DNA from: Candidatus Methanoperedens sp.
GTDB lineage: Archaea > Halobacteriota > Methanosarcinia > Methanosarcinales > Methanoperedenaceae
Direction of reading: 5' to 3'
Length of the DNA: 51,756 bases
Assembly: GCA_012026835.1 (NCBI GenBank)
Contig: VEPN01000019.1
Coordinates: forward strand, 1 to 51,756
Shown: positions 28,034-39,367 of the stretch, one piece after another
How the letters are laid out: every line of letters begins with the position of its first letter
Position numbering within the stretch: the first letter of the stretch is position 1
Notes under the pieces: model-generated
What the model was told of the DNA's origin: nothing
Seen by the model: only the letters and a program-made list of their open reading frames with translations
Databases searched by the model: none
Translations under genes and position numbers: made by a program

Positions 28034-28738
28034 ATGCCAGGTATTTCAGATTATTTCCCTTCTGACACCTCCCGTTCTTCCCTGCTTGCCTCCCAGCGCC
28101 TCGTTTCAGAAAGAGCAGTTATCAAAGATGCTTTCAATGAGCTGCGATACATCGCAGGCGTGGACCAGGCATTCCCTGGTGACGAAATAATCTCAGGTAT
28201 TGTGGTTCTTGATTATAGTTCGTTCAAAGTCGTCGAGTGCGTCCATTCGATCCGGCCCGTGAGCTTTCCCTATATCCCCACATTCCTCAGCTTCCGCGAA
28301 GGCCCTGCGATTGTGGAAGCTTTTAAAGAACTAAAGACACTTCCGGATATGCTTTTGGTCGATGGCGCAGGGATAAACCATCCCCGCGGAGCCGGTATCG
28401 CCACTCATATCGGTGTGGAGCTGGATATACCCACGATCGGGATTACAAAAAAGATCCTGTGTGGCAGAGGTGATGAGCCCGGAGAGCCGGGTGAAGCAAA
28501 TCCCCTTGTATATGAAGGCCGAAAAGTCGGATGGCTGCTCAAGTCCTCAAAACGAAGCAGGGCGATAATAGTTGCACCCGGCCACAGGGTCTCACTTGAC
28601 AGTTCACTTTCCATTGTAAGATCATGCCTTCGCAATTACAAGCTTCCTGAACCTGTGAGGCTTGCGCACGAGTACGTTACAGGGTTGAGGAAAAAATTAG
28701 CAGGAAGACTCCAAAGACCCCTGATAAACCTAATTTAA
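28034..28738 (+). CDS. nfi: Endonuclease V
   Basis: A 234-residue nuclease cutting one phosphodiester 3' of deoxyinosine. The residues known in the Thermotoga maritima enzyme are found at nearly the same numbers: D44 in AGVDQAF, Y80 in PYIPTFLSFREGP, E89, D110 and H116 in LLVDGAGINHPRGAG, K139 in ITKK. The typical PYIP wedge is intact, so it should be active. It follows the thymidylate synthase gene by three bases. Its last nine bases overlap the convergent nitroreductase gene. Confidence 0.96.
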   Translation: MPGISDYFPSDTSRSSLLASQRLVSERAVIKDAFNELRYIAGVDQAFPGDEIISGIVVLDYSSFKVVECVHSIRPVSFPYIPTFLSFREGPAIVEAFKELKTLPDMLLVDGAGINHPRGAGIATHIGVELDIPTIGITKKILCGRGDEPGEPGEANPLVYEGRKVGWLLKSSKRSRAIIVAPGHRVSLDSSLSIVRSCLRNYKLPEPVRLAHEYVTGLRKKLAGRLQRPLINLI

Positions 28739-29305
28739 CCAGTTTATCTCAGGCTCGATTTTCTCAGGCATTTGTGTTTCGCCTTTAGGATACCCGAAAA
28801 TCAACGGCGCGACAGCTTTATAACCTTGCGGCGCTCCGAGTTCTTTTAACAATTTCTCATCCATAAGCGCGGGAAGAACGCCGCCTACCCAGCAGCTCCC
28901 GATACCCCTTGAGTGGGCCGCAAGCATCATATTCTGGGCAGCCATTGAACAATCAAAATCGACGGTTGGCGCATTTTTATTTCCAAGAACTATCACAAGC
29001 ACAGGGGCATTATAGAACATGTCCGTGCCTTTTGTTTTAAGAAAAACAAGGAAATCCTTTACCTTTTGGGAGGCATTCTTCATCGGTTCAAGCATCGGGA
29101 TCATGGATTTCTTGCCGCCCTCTGAGATTTTTTTCAATGCCTCTTTGTTTTTTATGACAAGAAAGCTCCATGGCTGCATATTAAAACCCGAAGGGGCATA
29201 CCTTGCACAATCAATAATAAATTCCATCTCTTCCTGTGGAATCTGTTCGTCCTTGTACTCACGTACGCTGCGCCTGTTTTTAATTACTTCAATAATATCG
29301 CTCAA
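28730..29305 (-). CDS. Nitroreductase-family flavoprotein
   Basis: A 191-residue FMN-dependent oxidoreductase. It has RRSVREY (FMN phosphate contact), CARYAPSGFNMQPWSFLVI, and MAAQNMMLAAHSRGIGSCW plus the late GYPKGE. The substrate is unknown; family members reduce nitro groups, quinones or flavins, or dehalogenate. The start is TTG 29305 with GGGTGAG upstream. It shares its fold with the gene at 38509-39027 (both open with an IK-x-RRSVR start), so the window has two paralogues. Confidence 0.9.
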   Translation of the reverse strand: MSDIIEVIKNRRSVREYKDEQIPQEEMEFIIDCARYAPSGFNMQPWSFLVIKNKEALKKISEGGKKSMIPMLEPMKNASQKVKDFLVFLKTKGTDMFYNAPVLVIVLGNKNAPTVDFDCSMAAQNMMLAAHSRGIGSCWVGGVLPALMDEKLLKELGAPQGYKAVAPLIFGYPKGETQMPEKIEPEINWLN

Positions 29306-29373: not shown

Positions 29374-29874
29374 TCACTTCCCTTGTTTATGAAGACTTTC
29401 CAGATCCTGTACATGGCAGATATCACAAGTATGCCCTTTTGTGATATGTATGGTGATCAGGTTCCCAAAGCTTGGTGATAAAGGATCAGGATAGCCGTGG
29501 CAGGTATCGCATATCATTTCATGGCCTTGCAGTTTTTCAGGTATTTCTACTACAGTGCTGCTGCCGTGGCAGGTTTTACATGTCAGGTCTGGCTTTGAAC
29601 TTTTCTTATGCAGGTCGTGCAGTTCGGTTCCGTGGCATGATGCACAATAATTCCCTCCGTTTATGTGTTTTATAAGTTTCTCAGGCTGTTTATGGCACAG
29701 GGTACATTCTATTGTTTGTTCAGGTATAGCCTCAAACTCAGGAATCTGGATATCCTCCTGAACACTATTATTTTTCGGAATAAAAGCATCCGTCGTTCCT
29801 GCCAGATATGCCAGGCTCATAACGAGTAATACTCCTGACAGCGCCATTGTTACTATATAATTTTTATCATTCAT
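29374..29874 (-). CDS. Membrane-anchored penta-haem c-type cytochrome
   Basis: A 166-residue protein with an N-terminal helix (VTMALSGVLLVMSLAYLAG) serving as signal anchor. It has five C-x2-CH haem sites at residues 57-61, 77-81, 99-103, 122-126 and 150-154. Additional histidines (GH, LH pairs) can act as distal ligands. The layout is that of small NrfH/NapC- or cytochrome-c7-like electron carriers. In anaerobic methanotrophs such proteins move electrons from the menaquinone pool outward. It is transcribed alone and divergent from the DHH exonuclease; no ribosome site is evident. Confidence 0.9.
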   Translation of the reverse strand: MNDKNYIVTMALSGVLLVMSLAYLAGTTDAFIPKNNSVQEDIQIPEFEAIPEQTIECTLCHKQPEKLIKHINGGNYCASCHGTELHDLHKKSSKPDLTCKTCHGSSTVVEIPEKLQGHEMICDTCHGYPDPLSPSFGNLITIHITKGHTCDICHVQDLESLHKQGK

Positions 29875-31393: not shown

Positions 31394-32557
31394 CTATGAG
31401 CTTTTGTATGAAATCCTGTAAATCTTCCCCGAGTTATCATCACTTACGAAAATCGATCCGTCATCTGCAACGATGATGTCTACCGGTCTGCCGGTCACAT
31501 TGCCTCCCGAAAGCCACCCGGTAGCGAAATCATTTACTGTAAAATCATTCATATTTATCCTGACAATCTTATAACCAGTCGGCTCCCCGCGGTTCCACGA
31601 GCCGTGGAAAGCGACGAACAGGTTGCCCCTGTACTCTGCGGGGAAGCTGCCCCCGTAATAAAAAGCAAGTCCCAGCGGTGCAGAGTGGGCTTGCAGGTCT
31701 ATGATACTTGGCATTTCAAAAGGTTCCATGCAGGGATTTCTTACATAAACGTTCTTGTCAAAATCAGTATCGTGGATGTTCTTACCATAGCATATCGGCC
31801 AGCCGTAGTTATTTCCCTCTTCAATAATGTTGATTTCATCGGGCGGAAGTTCGTCACCAAGATAATCGCGCCCGTTATCAGTGGCGTACATCTTACCTGT
31901 TACCGGGTGAAAGACAAAACCAACTGCATTTCTCAAACCTTTTGCATAGATGCTGCAACCTGTTCCCTCAAGGCTACATTTCAAAATCGATGCCCTTCTT
32001 TCATCCTGTTCGTTGCAGACATTGCATGAAGAGCCAATGCTAAGGTACAGGCTGTTATTATGGATTTTTACTGTTCTTGTAAAGTGACCGCCGGCAGGCA
32101 GGTTATCTATAAGGACTTCTAAAGAACCCATATCAGCGGTAAGGCTATTATCTTTTGCTTTTACCCGTATTACCCTGTTCTCTTCAGCAATATAAAACCA
32201 GCCGTTGTAGTAATCTATCCCATGCGGGTTGTTGAGTTTATCGATAAATGTTACAGCCTCATCTGCTCTTTTATCGCCATTCATATCAGGGAGAGCGATA
32301 ACTCGTCCCTGGTTAGGTACAGTGACAAATAGAACATTATCTTTAAGAAGCATCATTCTCGGCCCTGGGTTCGATACAGGGCTCCCGCCGAGGTCTTCTG
32401 AGAAAACATCTATCCTGAATCCATCCGGCAGGTTGATCTCACCGGACGAATCTGGTTTCAAGGCGGGTTTGGATCCGTATAATGCAGACATAGCGGCTGC
32501 TAACGCTATTACAAATACTATTACTGCCACCCATATGATTTTATTTTTCGTAATCAT
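31394..32557 (-). CDS. Membrane-anchored PQQ-type sugar dehydrogenase
   Basis: A 387-residue protein from ATG 32557 (GAGGAGT just upstream; an in-frame ATG at 32641 adds a non-hydrophobic extension). An N-terminal anchor (IIWVAVIVFVIALAAAMSALYG) is followed by a six-bladed propeller of the soluble glucose/sorbosone dehydrogenase family, with the NNYGWPICYG and GSWNRGEPTGYKIVRI segments. Homologues oxidise aldose sugars with pyrroloquinoline quinone. No PQQ synthesis gene is in the window, so the cofactor may be imported or absent. It lies upstream (minus strand) of no other gene and is likely extracytoplasmic. Confidence 0.88.
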   Translation of the reverse strand: MITKNKIIWVAVIVFVIALAAAMSALYGSKPALKPDSSGEINLPDGFRIDVFSEDLGGSPVSNPGPRMMLLKDNVLFVTVPNQGRVIALPDMNGDKRADEAVTFIDKLNNPHGIDYYNGWFYIAEENRVIRVKAKDNSLTADMGSLEVLIDNLPAGGHFTRTVKIHNNSLYLSIGSSCNVCNEQDERRASILKCSLEGTGCSIYAKGLRNAVGFVFHPVTGKMYATDNGRDYLGDELPPDEINIIEEGNNYGWPICYGKNIHDTDFDKNVYVRNPCMEPFEMPSIIDLQAHSAPLGLAFYYGGSFPAEYRGNLFVAFHGSWNRGEPTGYKIVRINMNDFTVNDFATGWLSGGNVTGRPVDIIVADDGSIFVSDDNSGKIYRISYKSS

Positions 32558-32698
32558 ACTCCTCAGTTCAATTACGGCGGCAGGTAATATACCACCGCTG
32601 CTGCTACTGCGCCAATAAATACCGAGTATCCTATATTGCATGCCCCGGGAATGTATTGGTCTTGCATTTCAAAATCCGGATATTAATGCATCATGTTC

Positions 32699-33088
32699 CT
32701 ATTTCACGTCCACCATTACAGAATCTCCCTCTATTTTAACTGGAAATGTTTCCAGATCATAAGTCTTGATATCAGACATAAGCGTGTCCAGATACTGGAA
32801 ATAATTATCCAAGCTTTCCGGGAACGGCTCGTTTCCGAAATCGCGGGGAACAGGCTTGCTTAAAGCCTCACCAGTTGTTATATCGAACTGTGAATGGTGC
32901 ATCGGGCAGGTTAAAATATAGCCATCAAGGGTCCCCATCTCAAGAGGTGCATTCATATGGCCACATCTTCTCCCGATAGCATATATCCTGCCATCATAAT
33001 TGCATAGAACGATTTCTTTTCCGGCCACTACAACGGCTTTCATTCCCCCTGAAGCTACTTCATCTATTTTTGCCACTTCAACGAACAT
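32699..33088 (-). CDS. Rieske [2Fe-2S] ferredoxin, last gene of redox operon
   Basis: A 129-residue protein with the Rieske ligands C42-x-H44 (RRCGHMNAP) and C61-x2-H64 (CPMHHSQFD). There is no transmembrane segment, so it is a soluble Rieske-type ferredoxin like those of dioxygenase systems. GAGGTCAGG directly precedes ATG 33088, favouring it over 33109. The start overlaps the end of the FTR catalytic subunit by 11 bases. An extra ~25-residue insert after FDITTGEALSKPVPRD, with aromatic residues, distinguishes it from the shorter Rieske at 33682-34005. Confidence 0.9.
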   Translation of the reverse strand: MFVEVAKIDEVASGGMKAVVVAGKEIVLCNYDGRIYAIGRRCGHMNAPLEMGTLDGYILTCPMHHSQFDITTGEALSKPVPRDFGNEPFPESLDNYFQYLDTLMSDIKTYDLETFPVKIEGDSVMVDVK

Positions 33089-33425
33089 CCTGACCTCTTT
33101 TGATCTCATTAAATGGTATCTGCTTCAGTGCATCCGGATCTGTCACGTCTTTATGAACATAGAGTCCACACCAGCATCTCCTGATAGCATCGAAATGTTC
33201 CCTGTGAAAAGGTATGCAGGGGCAGACTATTTTCATGTTTTCTTCTCTTTTTTTTGTGAGCCCCTGACAGGGACAGTAAGGGATGCCGTGTTTCTGTTCC
33301 AGCAGGACCTCCTGTTCAAGCAGGAAATCAACCATCTCCTCATCAGGGCTGAATTTATAGCCCAGCGGATCTATTATTTTTTGAAAGAAGTATCTGAGTG
33401 CTTTTTTCCGTGATCCGGGATTCAT
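33078..33425 (-). CDS. Ferredoxin:thioredoxin reductase catalytic subunit, CWC variant
   Basis: A 115-residue protein with the three Cys pairs of the FTR catalytic subunit: C51-P-C53, C68-P-C70 and C84-W-C86. These give the [4Fe-4S] cluster plus the redox-active disulfide that passes electrons from ferredoxin to thioredoxin or glutaredoxin. The third motif is CWC, where the plant and cyanobacterial enzymes have CHC, so the cluster-facing His is replaced. It overlaps the glutaredoxin stop by four bases (ATGA). No variable subunit is present, as is usual outside oxygenic phototrophs. The glutaredoxin next door is the probable acceptor. Confidence 0.92.
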   Translation of the reverse strand: MNPGSRKKALRYFFQKIIDPLGYKFSPDEEMVDFLLEQEVLLEQKHGIPYCPCQGLTKKREENMKIVCPCIPFHREHFDAIRRCWCGLYVHKDVTDPDALKQIPFNEIKRGQDVR

Positions 33426-33682
33426 TTTTGTTTACCTTTTTCCCCCAGCAATTCAGAATATTTATCGGGATTATACCCTACAATTACGTTGTCATCAATC
33501 TTTACAAATGGAAAAGCCTTGGTGGTGCTAAGTTTTTCCATCTCTTTCATTATTTTATCCTGTTCTTCCTCATTCTGAAGGTCATAATCCACAAATTCAA
33601 AAGGAATGTTTTTTTCCTTGAAAAATTGTTTTGTTTTCCTGCACCACGGACACGTACTGAGAGTGTACATGAATACTTTCAT
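33422..33682 (-). CDS. Glutaredoxin-like protein, CPWC active site
   Basis: An 86-residue thioredoxin-fold protein with active site C11-P-W-C14 and the cis-Pro in AFPFVKI. GAGGG precedes ATG 33682 and the longer in-frame start is less likely. Its stop overlaps the FTR start (ATGA) and its start shares one base with the stop of the upstream Rieske gene (TAATG). It is therefore positioned as direct partner of the FTR: ferredoxin would reduce FTR, FTR this protein, and this protein a disulfide substrate. The pathway is inferred. Confidence 0.9.
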   Translation of the reverse strand: MKVFMYTLSTCPWCRKTKQFFKEKNIPFEFVDYDLQNEEEQDKIMKEMEKLSTTKAFPFVKIDDNVIVGYNPDKYSELLGEKGKQK

Positions 33683-34005
33683 TACTTTTTTCCCTCCTCG
33701 ATTTTTATGAAGATTCTTCCATCCGATAATTTCCATTCATAAACCGGTATTCTGATCTCTCTGGCATCTTGGAACTCACCTGTCCTGATATCAAATTTCC
33801 AGTCATGACACGGGCATTTAATTGTATAATCTTTTAAAGTGCCCCCTGCCAGCGTACATGCCATATGCGCACATTTATTCGATATGGCGTATATCTCCCC
33901 GGCTTTTTTGATAAGAAGGACTGGCAGCCCTTTCGGGAACACCATGTTAATGTTCTCCTGTAATTTATTTTCATCAATTGCATAAACCCATGAGGATCCA
34001 ATCAT
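33682..34005 (-). CDS. Rieske [2Fe-2S] ferredoxin, first gene of redox operon
   Basis: A 107-residue soluble Rieske protein with ligands C45-x-H47 (KCAHMACTL) and C64-x2-H67 (CPCHDWKFD). GGGAG precedes ATG 34005; an upstream in-frame start at 34077 lies within promoter sequence (TATTTATATC near 34059). It heads a four-gene operon of Rieske, glutaredoxin, FTR and Rieske with overlaps throughout. The extra Cys between ligands C64 and H67 (CPCH) and the C50 in MACTL are additional thiols near the cluster, possibly disulfide-forming. Confidence 0.9.
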   Translation of the reverse strand: MIGSSWVYAIDENKLQENINMVFPKGLPVLLIKKAGEIYAISNKCAHMACTLAGGTLKDYTIKCPCHDWKFDIRTGEFQDAREIRIPVYEWKLSDGRIFIKIEEGKK

Positions 34006-38508: not shown

Positions 38509-39027
38509 CTACCAGCCTGCCCCGAATTTCTCACGAAAAACAAGCTCATTTAATTCTTTTCGCTTGGAACTCCTTATTTTACTTAGCGGATGGCCTAAAG
38601 CGATTACGGCCATCAATTCATAGGATTCAGGCGCTCCGAGTACCTTGTTTACCATCTCCCTGTTTTTCAATATCTCACCCAGCCACACGCCTCCGAGTCC
38701 CATGGAATGAATTGCAAGAAGCATATTCTGGATGCATGCGCCTATTGATTGCACATCTTTCACATAATGGTACATATGGTCCCTGTCAAGAAAAACAACT
38801 ATCAGGACAGGGGCGTTTTTTACAGTCGGGCCGTAATCCGTAAGTTCTGAGAGGTCTATCTTCGTTTCCGGTCTTCGCACTATGATAAACCGCCATGCCT
38901 GGTTATTCAGGCCGGACGGCGCCCACCTTCCGGCATCAAGTACCTGCACGATTGTCTCATCGCTCACATCCCATGCCTCAAATCCCCGGACGCTCCTGCG
39001 CGTCTTTATGGCTTCAATGGTTTCCAT
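38509..39027 (-). CDS. Nitroreductase-family flavoprotein
   Basis: A 172-residue protein from ATG 39027, favoured by GGGTGATTTT just upstream; the longer frame to 39090 overlaps the preceding gene. RRSVRGFE, AGRWAPSGLNNQAWRFIIV and IGACIQNMLLAIHSMGLGGVW are the FMN-binding and dimer segments of the family. The substrate is unknown. It is a paralogue of 28730-29305. It lies four bases after the zinc-ribbon protein gene and may be co-transcribed with it and the B12-binding radical SAM gene upstream. Confidence 0.9.
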   Translation of the reverse strand: METIEAIKTRRSVRGFEAWDVSDETIVQVLDAGRWAPSGLNNQAWRFIIVRRPETKIDLSELTDYGPTVKNAPVLIVVFLDRDHMYHYVKDVQSIGACIQNMLLAIHSMGLGGVWLGEILKNREMVNKVLGAPESYELMAVIALGHPLSKIRSSKRKELNELVFREKFGAGW

Positions 39028-39031
39028 AAAA

Positions 39032-39367
39032 TCACCCGTACATTTGCGGATCGGGCGGCTGGGACTGTAGAATGGAAATAAGGTTTTCAAGTGACAGCGG
39101 AAAAACAGCTGTTATCTCTTCACCGCAGACCGGACATTTTCTTGACAGGTAAAGCGGTGTTACATTTATCGTCTCGTCATAAACGGATTCGGATATGAAT
39201 GGGCTTAAAGTTGGTATGGGCTGTCCTATCCTGAAATCGCCGCCTGAAAAAAAATCAAGATAACTGATCTTATTCGAATAACCACATTTGCACCTGAACT
39301 CGACCTTGTTTTTTAAGAAATTATTTTTCCTGTTTTTCTGTAGTAATGAAACGAGTATTTCTTTCAT
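39032..39367 (-). CDS. Hypothetical CpxC-like zinc-binding protein
   Basis: A 111-residue protein with two Cys pairs, FRCKCGYSN near residue 25 and RKCPVCGEE near residue 78. These probably build one zinc site, similar in layout to CpxC-type zinc-ribbon proteins. The remainder is beta-type with a Pro-rich C-terminus. It sits between the radical SAM gene and the nitroreductase on the same strand with small gaps (24 and 4 bases), suggesting a three-gene operon. The function is unknown. The start is ATG 39367 (a TTG precedes it). Confidence 0.72.
   Translation of the reverse strand: MKEILVSLLQKNRKNNFLKNKVEFRCKCGYSNKISYLDFFSGGDFRIGQPIPTLSPFISESVYDETINVTPLYLSRKCPVCGEEITAVFPLSLENLISILQSQPPDPQMYG

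Follow-up and report, generated by a model that had tools for sequence, protein, structure and literature searches.

A four-gene cassette in Candidatus Methanoperedens sp., an archaeon that oxidises methane, joins two Rieske proteins, a glutaredoxin and an FTR catalytic subunit, and the combination recurs in other archaea and in bacteria. On the strength of its sequences we propose, with a probability of about one half, that the cassette encodes a dedicated disulfide reductase, with electrons passing between the Rieske ferredoxins and the FTR cluster and with glutaredoxin as the thiol carrier. The analysis suggests that the cassette belongs with the known FTR-type disulfide reductases and that its novelty would lie in the Rieske-linked combination. 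Perhaps, and we say this with less assurance, such cassettes encode a class of disulfide reductases that is widespread and has so far gone unnoticed, one whose FTR-type [4Fe-4S]/disulfide centre is partnered by Rieske proteins rather than by low-potential ferredoxins or NADPH/F420 flavoproteins.

The window, that is, the whole stretch of DNA that was analysed (51,756 nucleotides), is an entire contig (G000:C30) of a 3.32-Mb genome with relatives in the Methanoperedenaceae. The original prediction of four overlapping minus-strand genes was correct in its coordinates and junctions, and every product scored above the cut-off of its Pfam family:

34005-33682, minus strand: Rieske A, 107 aa; PF00355, 60.7 bits (cut-off 20.3)
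33682-33422, minus strand: glutaredoxin, 86 aa, active site CPWC; PF00462, 50.2 bits (cut-off 22.9)
33425-33078, minus strand: FTR, 115 aa, motifs CPC/CPC/CWC; PF02943, 91.3 bits (cut-off 22)
33088-32699, minus strand: Rieske B, 129 aa; PF00355, 64.8 bits (cut-off 20.3)

Rieske A and the glutaredoxin gene share a single base at 33682 within TAATG, the last A of the TAA stop codon being the A of the ATG. The glutaredoxin stop and the FTR start overlap by four bases (ATGA, 33425-33422), and FTR overlaps Rieske B by 11 bases (33088-33078). The claim that these genes form an operon was borne out by relatives under about ten phylum labels, in which the set is likewise linked. Two of the five Rieske matches in the host genome lie in the cassette. 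One of the others, at G000:C36 19674-19886 (L119 196-1734), belongs to a 512-aa FAD oxidoreductase-Rieske fusion with the motif CTHMGC...CPCHGS. The genome contains two FTR-type genes, the second of which encodes a rubredoxin-tailed FDR (third motif CLC) and lies with its own glutaredoxin at G000:C97.

The cassette FTR is a stand-alone catalytic subunit with three CxC motifs, CPC(51-53)-X14-CPC(68-70)-X13-CWC(84-86), which are expected to supply four cluster ligands and the redox disulfide. Its six motif cysteines and Trp85 are invariant among intact relatives, all intact cassette copies have CWC as their third motif, and the subfamily can be recognised by the signature CPCIPFHRxHFD. The plant-type third motif (CHC, X8 spacing) is absent from the cassette FTR, which has CWC with X13 instead; a C-terminal rubredoxin domain is also absent, the protein being complete at 115 aa and having a single Pfam domain. 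As had been predicted, the plant variable subunit is missing: the host genome gave no match to the variable chain PF02941, in a search whose control was positive in Synechococcus only. The nearest solved relatives are 4tpu (Methanosarcina FDR; best PDB match, 50.9 bits), 7pwe and 1dj7 (cyanobacterial FTR). An AlphaFold2 model of the FTR, with 12 relatives in the alignment, reached a pLDDT of 51 and was set aside. The NCBIfam name FtrB double-selenoprotein was rejected on a score below its cut-off. We also rejected a fusion reading of apparent long FTR/glutaredoxin ORFs in some bacterial loci, which are start-site extensions.

The glutaredoxin has the active site CPWC, replaced by CFHC in three Bacillota. 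It is NrdH/YruB-like, yet it falls under the cut-off of every named NCBIfam subfamily; it scored 62.2 bits for YruB (cut-off 88.55) and 38.2 bits for NrdH (cut-off 85.75), and the name NrdH was rejected. The protein matches the glutaredoxin half of 7pwe, and its gene, when present in the cassette, always lies between Rieske A and FTR.

That the two Rieske proteins differ, as originally claimed, was confirmed by a tree in which they form separate clades with a support of 100. Rieske A has the motif CAHMAC...CPCH, which combines CxH/CxxH ligands with an extra cysteine pair, C50 and C66, of the bc1/b6f type. These two residues are invariant and adjoin the cluster ligands; the pair occurs in every upstream Rieske protein with an intact motif and in no downstream Rieske B. 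In bc1/b6f Rieske proteins the second cysteine pair forms a disulfide. The Ser and Tyr of bc1 proteins (CPCHGSxY), which raise the Rieske potential, are missing from Rieske A, which has CPCHDWKF. Rieske B has the motif CGHMNAPL...CPMHxxQFD, no extra pair, and a C-terminal insertion of about 25 residues. Both proteins are nearest by sequence to dioxygenase Rieske ferredoxins (closest PDB sequences for Rieske B, 2qpz and 5bok), and Rieske A is so by predicted fold as well: its AlphaFold2 model (pLDDT 94) is closest to 2qpz, the naphthalene dioxygenase ferredoxin, with a TM-score of 0.83. The idea of a high-potential donor therefore holds in part: the cysteine pair of Rieske A speaks for it, but the resemblance of both proteins to dioxygenase ferredoxins and the missing pair in Rieske B speak against it. 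Identity as NirD, the nitrite reductase small subunit, was rejected (47.1 and 35.5 versus a cut-off of 74.65 bits), as were the NCBIfam names HcaC and sulredoxin, both below cut-off. No ring-hydroxylating oxygenase catalytic subunit (PF00848) was found in the host genome by a search that was positive in 4 of 14 control genomes. We conclude that Rieske A and Rieske B are Rieske ferredoxins that do not belong to an oxygenase.

Comparison with characterised systems places the cassette beside several of them and apart from each. Judged by its motifs, the FTR is a PF02943 member without the defining features of either plant FTR or Methanosarcina FDR. It shares with plant and cyanobacterial FTR (1dj7, 2pu9) the PF02943 catalytic chain, the six motif cysteines and an expected [4Fe-4S] cluster beside the redox disulfide, but it has no variable chain, has CWC and not CHC with the longer X13 spacing, and is linked to Rieske and glutaredoxin genes rather than to a [2Fe-2S] plant ferredoxin and a thioredoxin. 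Methanosarcina FDR (4tpu) resembles it in having no variable chain and in its glutaredoxin-like partners; unlike the cassette enzyme, FDR is fused to a C-terminal rubredoxin, carries a third motif of CYC in 4tpu and CLC in Methanoperedens, and occurs at loci without a Rieske gene. In the natural glutaredoxin-FTR fusion of the solved structure 7pwe both partners follow in the same order within one polypeptide, whereas the cassette has two separate proteins; 7pwe has no Rieske component, and its third motif is CYC. The aromatic dioxygenase Rieske ferredoxins (2qpz, 5bok, BphF) are similar to the cassette proteins in size, CxH/CxxH ligands and sequence, and to Rieske A in predicted fold, but the host genome has no oxygenase, Rieske A has the extra bc1-type pair and Rieske B its C-terminal insertion. 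Another parallel is the Methanosarcina route from NrdH/FDR to class III ribonucleotide reductase, in which an FTR-type enzyme reduces a glutaredoxin-like protein. That pair corresponds to a separate glutaredoxin-FDR locus and not to the Rieske cassette; we found the separate locus (L002, L014-L032) in nearly all Methanoperedenaceae genomes searched, and the neighbourhood of the Rieske cassette showed no ribonucleotide reductase gene. Methanosarcina FDR is reported to reduce the glutaredoxin-like protein MaTrx5 (cited in PMC6262447).

We then scanned GTDB contigs with FTR peptides alone, blind to the neighbours, and recovered 52 CWC-FTR loci, a set that is not exhaustive. A Rieske gene was present in the cassette at 52/52 of these loci, and glutaredoxin at 51/52, two of them with the gene 2.5-4 kb upstream. 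Order and orientation were constant: Rieske A in one to three copies, glutaredoxin, FTR and then, in 23 loci, Rieske B. Junction gaps were no longer than 20 nt in 48/50, 52/52 and 26/26 cases. The loci span archaea and bacteria under about ten phylum labels; most come from MAGs, and the bacterial examples are mostly single MAGs, so individual phylum assignments may be wrong. The four-gene form occurs under archaeal labels (Methanoperedens/Methanosarcinales and Bathyarchaeota) and under the bacterial labels Prolixibacteraceae (Bacteroidota), Actinomycetota including Thermoleophilia, Omnitrophota, Deltaproteobacteria (placed in Myxococcota), Fibrobacteres, Ignavibacteriae and Acidobacteria. Such conservation across phyla rules out chance linkage. 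Of the two outcomes that would have told against the proposal, genes unlinked in relatives or Rieske proteins serving an oxygenase, neither was observed, and the retained linkage supports the claimed functional connection among the cassette proteins.

The cassette lacks Rieske B in Methanosarcinaceae and Bacillota, and Methanosarcina itself has no cassette. In 17 Methanosarcinaceae loci, which are not independent of each other, a nitroreductase (PF00881) takes its position, mostly overlapping FTR or within 30 bases of it, and this is the form found in most methylotrophic Methanosarcinaceae. The electron path was thus not, as first supposed, strictly closed at both ends, since Rieske B can be replaced or absent. 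Three Actinomycetota loci have an iron/manganese superoxide dismutase after the cassette, two of the three also with a nitroreductase upstream. Neighbours of the oxidant or nitro-stress type are a feature of some lineages only. In many Methanolobus genomes (L087, L089, L094, L095, L099, L103, L116) nitrogenase-like and PII-like genes lie on the opposite strand after the cassette nitroreductase.

Other FTR types served as controls. The 16 short CHC FTR loci of Methanosarcinaceae had neither Rieske nor glutaredoxin within 3 kb on each side, and the 20 CLC FTR-rubredoxin loci, inspected mostly over 1.5 kb on each side, had glutaredoxin in 19/20 and Rieske in 0/20. A tree of 87 FTR proteins placed all CWC sequences on one side of a branch with an SH-aLRT of 99, opposite 36 CHC/CLC controls. 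Distance matrices of the four proteins, in a comparison that included a set of 16 cross-phylum loci, were correlated (r 0.43-0.82), and at most 1 of 500-1000 shuffles was as high. Taken together, the conserved linkage, its restriction to CWC enzymes and the correlated distances indicate that the cassette is inherited as a single unit, which can move horizontally and is bound to one FTR subfamily. A scan of viral contigs found no relative.

Within the Methanoperedenaceae the CWC FTR is present in 11/34 genomes, and nearly all have the CLC rubredoxin enzyme. Rieske A orthologues were found in 10/11 genomes with the CWC FTR (among them a fragment at the edge of a contig in G015 and a copy 12 kb away in G027) versus 0/23 others, and Rieske B orthologues (64-77% identity) in 10/11 versus 1/23. 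In those 10 genomes Rieske B overlaps FTR or follows it directly; the one further orthologue, in G032, lies at a contig end. Fisher tests of the two associations, which ignore the kinship of the genomes, gave 8e-8 and 9e-7. Across the 34 genomes FTR, Rieske A and Rieske B are present or absent together. One locus, L041 (G002:C201, 7450-8008), holds a decaying cassette: the glutaredoxin motif has changed from CPWC to DPWS, Rieske A is lost and a deletion fuses FTR to Rieske B, with the downstream membrane protein and dehydrogenase intact. The two loci with a distant upstream glutaredoxin belong to Methanoperedens nitroreducens ANME-2d (L088) and isolate LC 1 (L078). Where dS could be computed, dN/dS between Methanoperedens copies was about 0.03-0.35, which places all four genes under purifying selection.

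The host genome offers neither half of the system its usual partner, having neither a variable chain for the FTR nor a ring-hydroxylating oxygenase for the Rieske proteins, and substitutes are encoded in the gene cluster itself. From the genomic evidence, the Rieske ferredoxins would give or take one electron at a time at the FTR [4Fe-4S]/disulfide centre, in place of the low-potential ferredoxin and variable chain that plants use. FTR would collect two electrons and then reduce the CPWC glutaredoxin, an exchange supported by the 7pwe fusion and by the FDR reaction with MaTrx5 cited in PMC6262447. The glutaredoxin could in turn pass its electrons to protein or low-molecular-weight disulfides, or to peroxide- or nitro-stress enzymes. 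Because a nitroreductase takes the Rieske B position in most Methanosarcinaceae, Rieske B or the nitroreductase in its slot probably ties the module, by way of a flavoprotein, to the NAD(P)H or F420H2 of the cell. Rieske A, which carries the extra cysteine pair, may dock at FTR or be a redox-tuned intermediate. A likely role for the whole would be thiol protection or regulation under oxidant exposure.

Dioxygenase-type Rieske ferredoxins have potentials of about -150 mV, and glutaredoxins of about -200 mV or lower. Electron flow from Rieske protein to glutaredoxin would therefore run slightly uphill, barring shifted potentials or a Rieske pool that stays reduced, and this makes the reverse path the main rival. 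Dithiols would then deliver electrons through glutaredoxin and FTR to the Rieske proteins and on to higher-potential acceptors such as the nitroreductase, quinone or oxidant scavengers, as a thiol oxidase or disulfide-forming path. Such flow would be downhill, given that Rieske potentials normally exceed those of glutaredoxins, and it would suit both the high-potential-type cysteine pair in every intact Rieske A and the nitroreductase and superoxide dismutase neighbours. We nevertheless consider it unlikely: the characterised FTR and FDR enzymes are all disulfide reductases, and an oxidising path would come at a cost to strict anaerobes such as Methanolobus, whose cytoplasm is reducing. The MaTrx5 reaction reported for Methanosarcina FDR (cited in PMC6262447) also runs in the reducing direction.

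The order of service might also be turned around, with glutaredoxin and FTR setting or repairing the redox state of the Rieske A cysteine pair, or delivering or repairing its cluster, and so switching it between potential states. The invariance of C50 and C66 next to the cluster ligands fits this, as does the fixed place of the in-cassette glutaredoxin gene between Rieske A and FTR; but Rieske B, which overlaps FTR, is devoid of the pair, other Rieske proteins reach maturity with no FTR involved and the bc1-type disulfide is normally structural, so that we hold the idea improbable. Co-regulation alone, in which four independent proteins share one stress regulon and the Rieske proteins serve other enzymes, seems to us quite unlikely too. 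It could account for the stress-type neighbours in some lineages and for the genes that have drifted away (Rieske A 12 kb off in G027, glutaredoxin 2.5-4 kb off in two genomes), yet an order and translational overlaps kept over about ten phyla, the confinement to one FTR subfamily and the joint loss are tighter than usual regulons, and the host genome offers no oxygenase partner. Finally, the Rieske proteins could be ring-hydroxylating oxygenase ferredoxins unrelated to FTR, as their closest PDB matches would have it. This we regard as scarcely credible, with PF00848 missing from the host genome in a search positive in 4/14 control genomes, with hosts that are mostly anaerobes and with no oxygenase gene recognised in the linked neighbourhoods inspected.

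Thioredoxin- and glutaredoxin-type systems are known to draw their electrons from low-potential ferredoxins, from NADPH flavoproteins or from other flavoprotein reductases. If the disulfide reductase reading is right, Rieske coupling would be a further input to thiol systems, one that works at a markedly higher potential, and it would have to be asked how two-electron disulfide reduction, or the reverse, could be driven by a mild donor of single electrons. In the open-licence literature, a limited scope, we found no description of a Rieske-glutaredoxin-FTR linkage. A 2024 study of Bathyarchaeia described three orphan Rieske proteins without oxygenases and called the compound that takes up their electrons undefined (PMC11697101). 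The cassette would offer a candidate partner to small Rieske proteins of this orphan kind in anaerobic archaea and bacteria. Cultured Methanolobus species carry it, as does the ANME-2d enrichment of Methanoperedens nitroreducens, so that the proposal can be put to an experimental test.

In relatives the operon is longer than four genes and continues with a small membrane protein, which we call C4, and then a glucose/sorbosone dehydrogenase-like gene. The window holds the corresponding features:

32572-32667, minus strand: C4 remnant, 31 aa, with N-terminal MQDQYIPGACNIG (13) joined in frame to C-terminal YSVFIGAVAAAVVYYLPP (18)
31394-32557, minus strand: glucose/sorbosone dehydrogenase-like beta-propeller; PF07995, 77.2 bits; N-terminal hydrophobic anchor

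Intact C4 is a membrane protein of 127-135 aa with the motif YIPGVCNIG, found after Rieske B in six Methanoperedens relatives; it matched no Pfam or NCBIfam family. The remnant was defined by alignment with L034, L035, L037, L038, L041 and L042, and its in-frame internal deletion may be genuine or the product of a collapsed assembly. In L033, L035, L037, L038 and L041 the PF07995 gene comes next after C4 or Rieske B; it ends the operon in Methanoperedens relatives only. Elsewhere near the cassette, the window encodes on the minus strand a small protein whose N-terminal segment is hydrophobic and which carries five haem motifs of the CxxCH type (29374-29874), and nitroreductase-like genes at 28730-29305 and 38509-39090. 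In two Methanoperedens genomes (L034 9379-9873 and L042 8782-9282) a rubredoxin-tailed CLC FTR lies about 480 bases after Rieske B, which brings both FTR types into one cluster.
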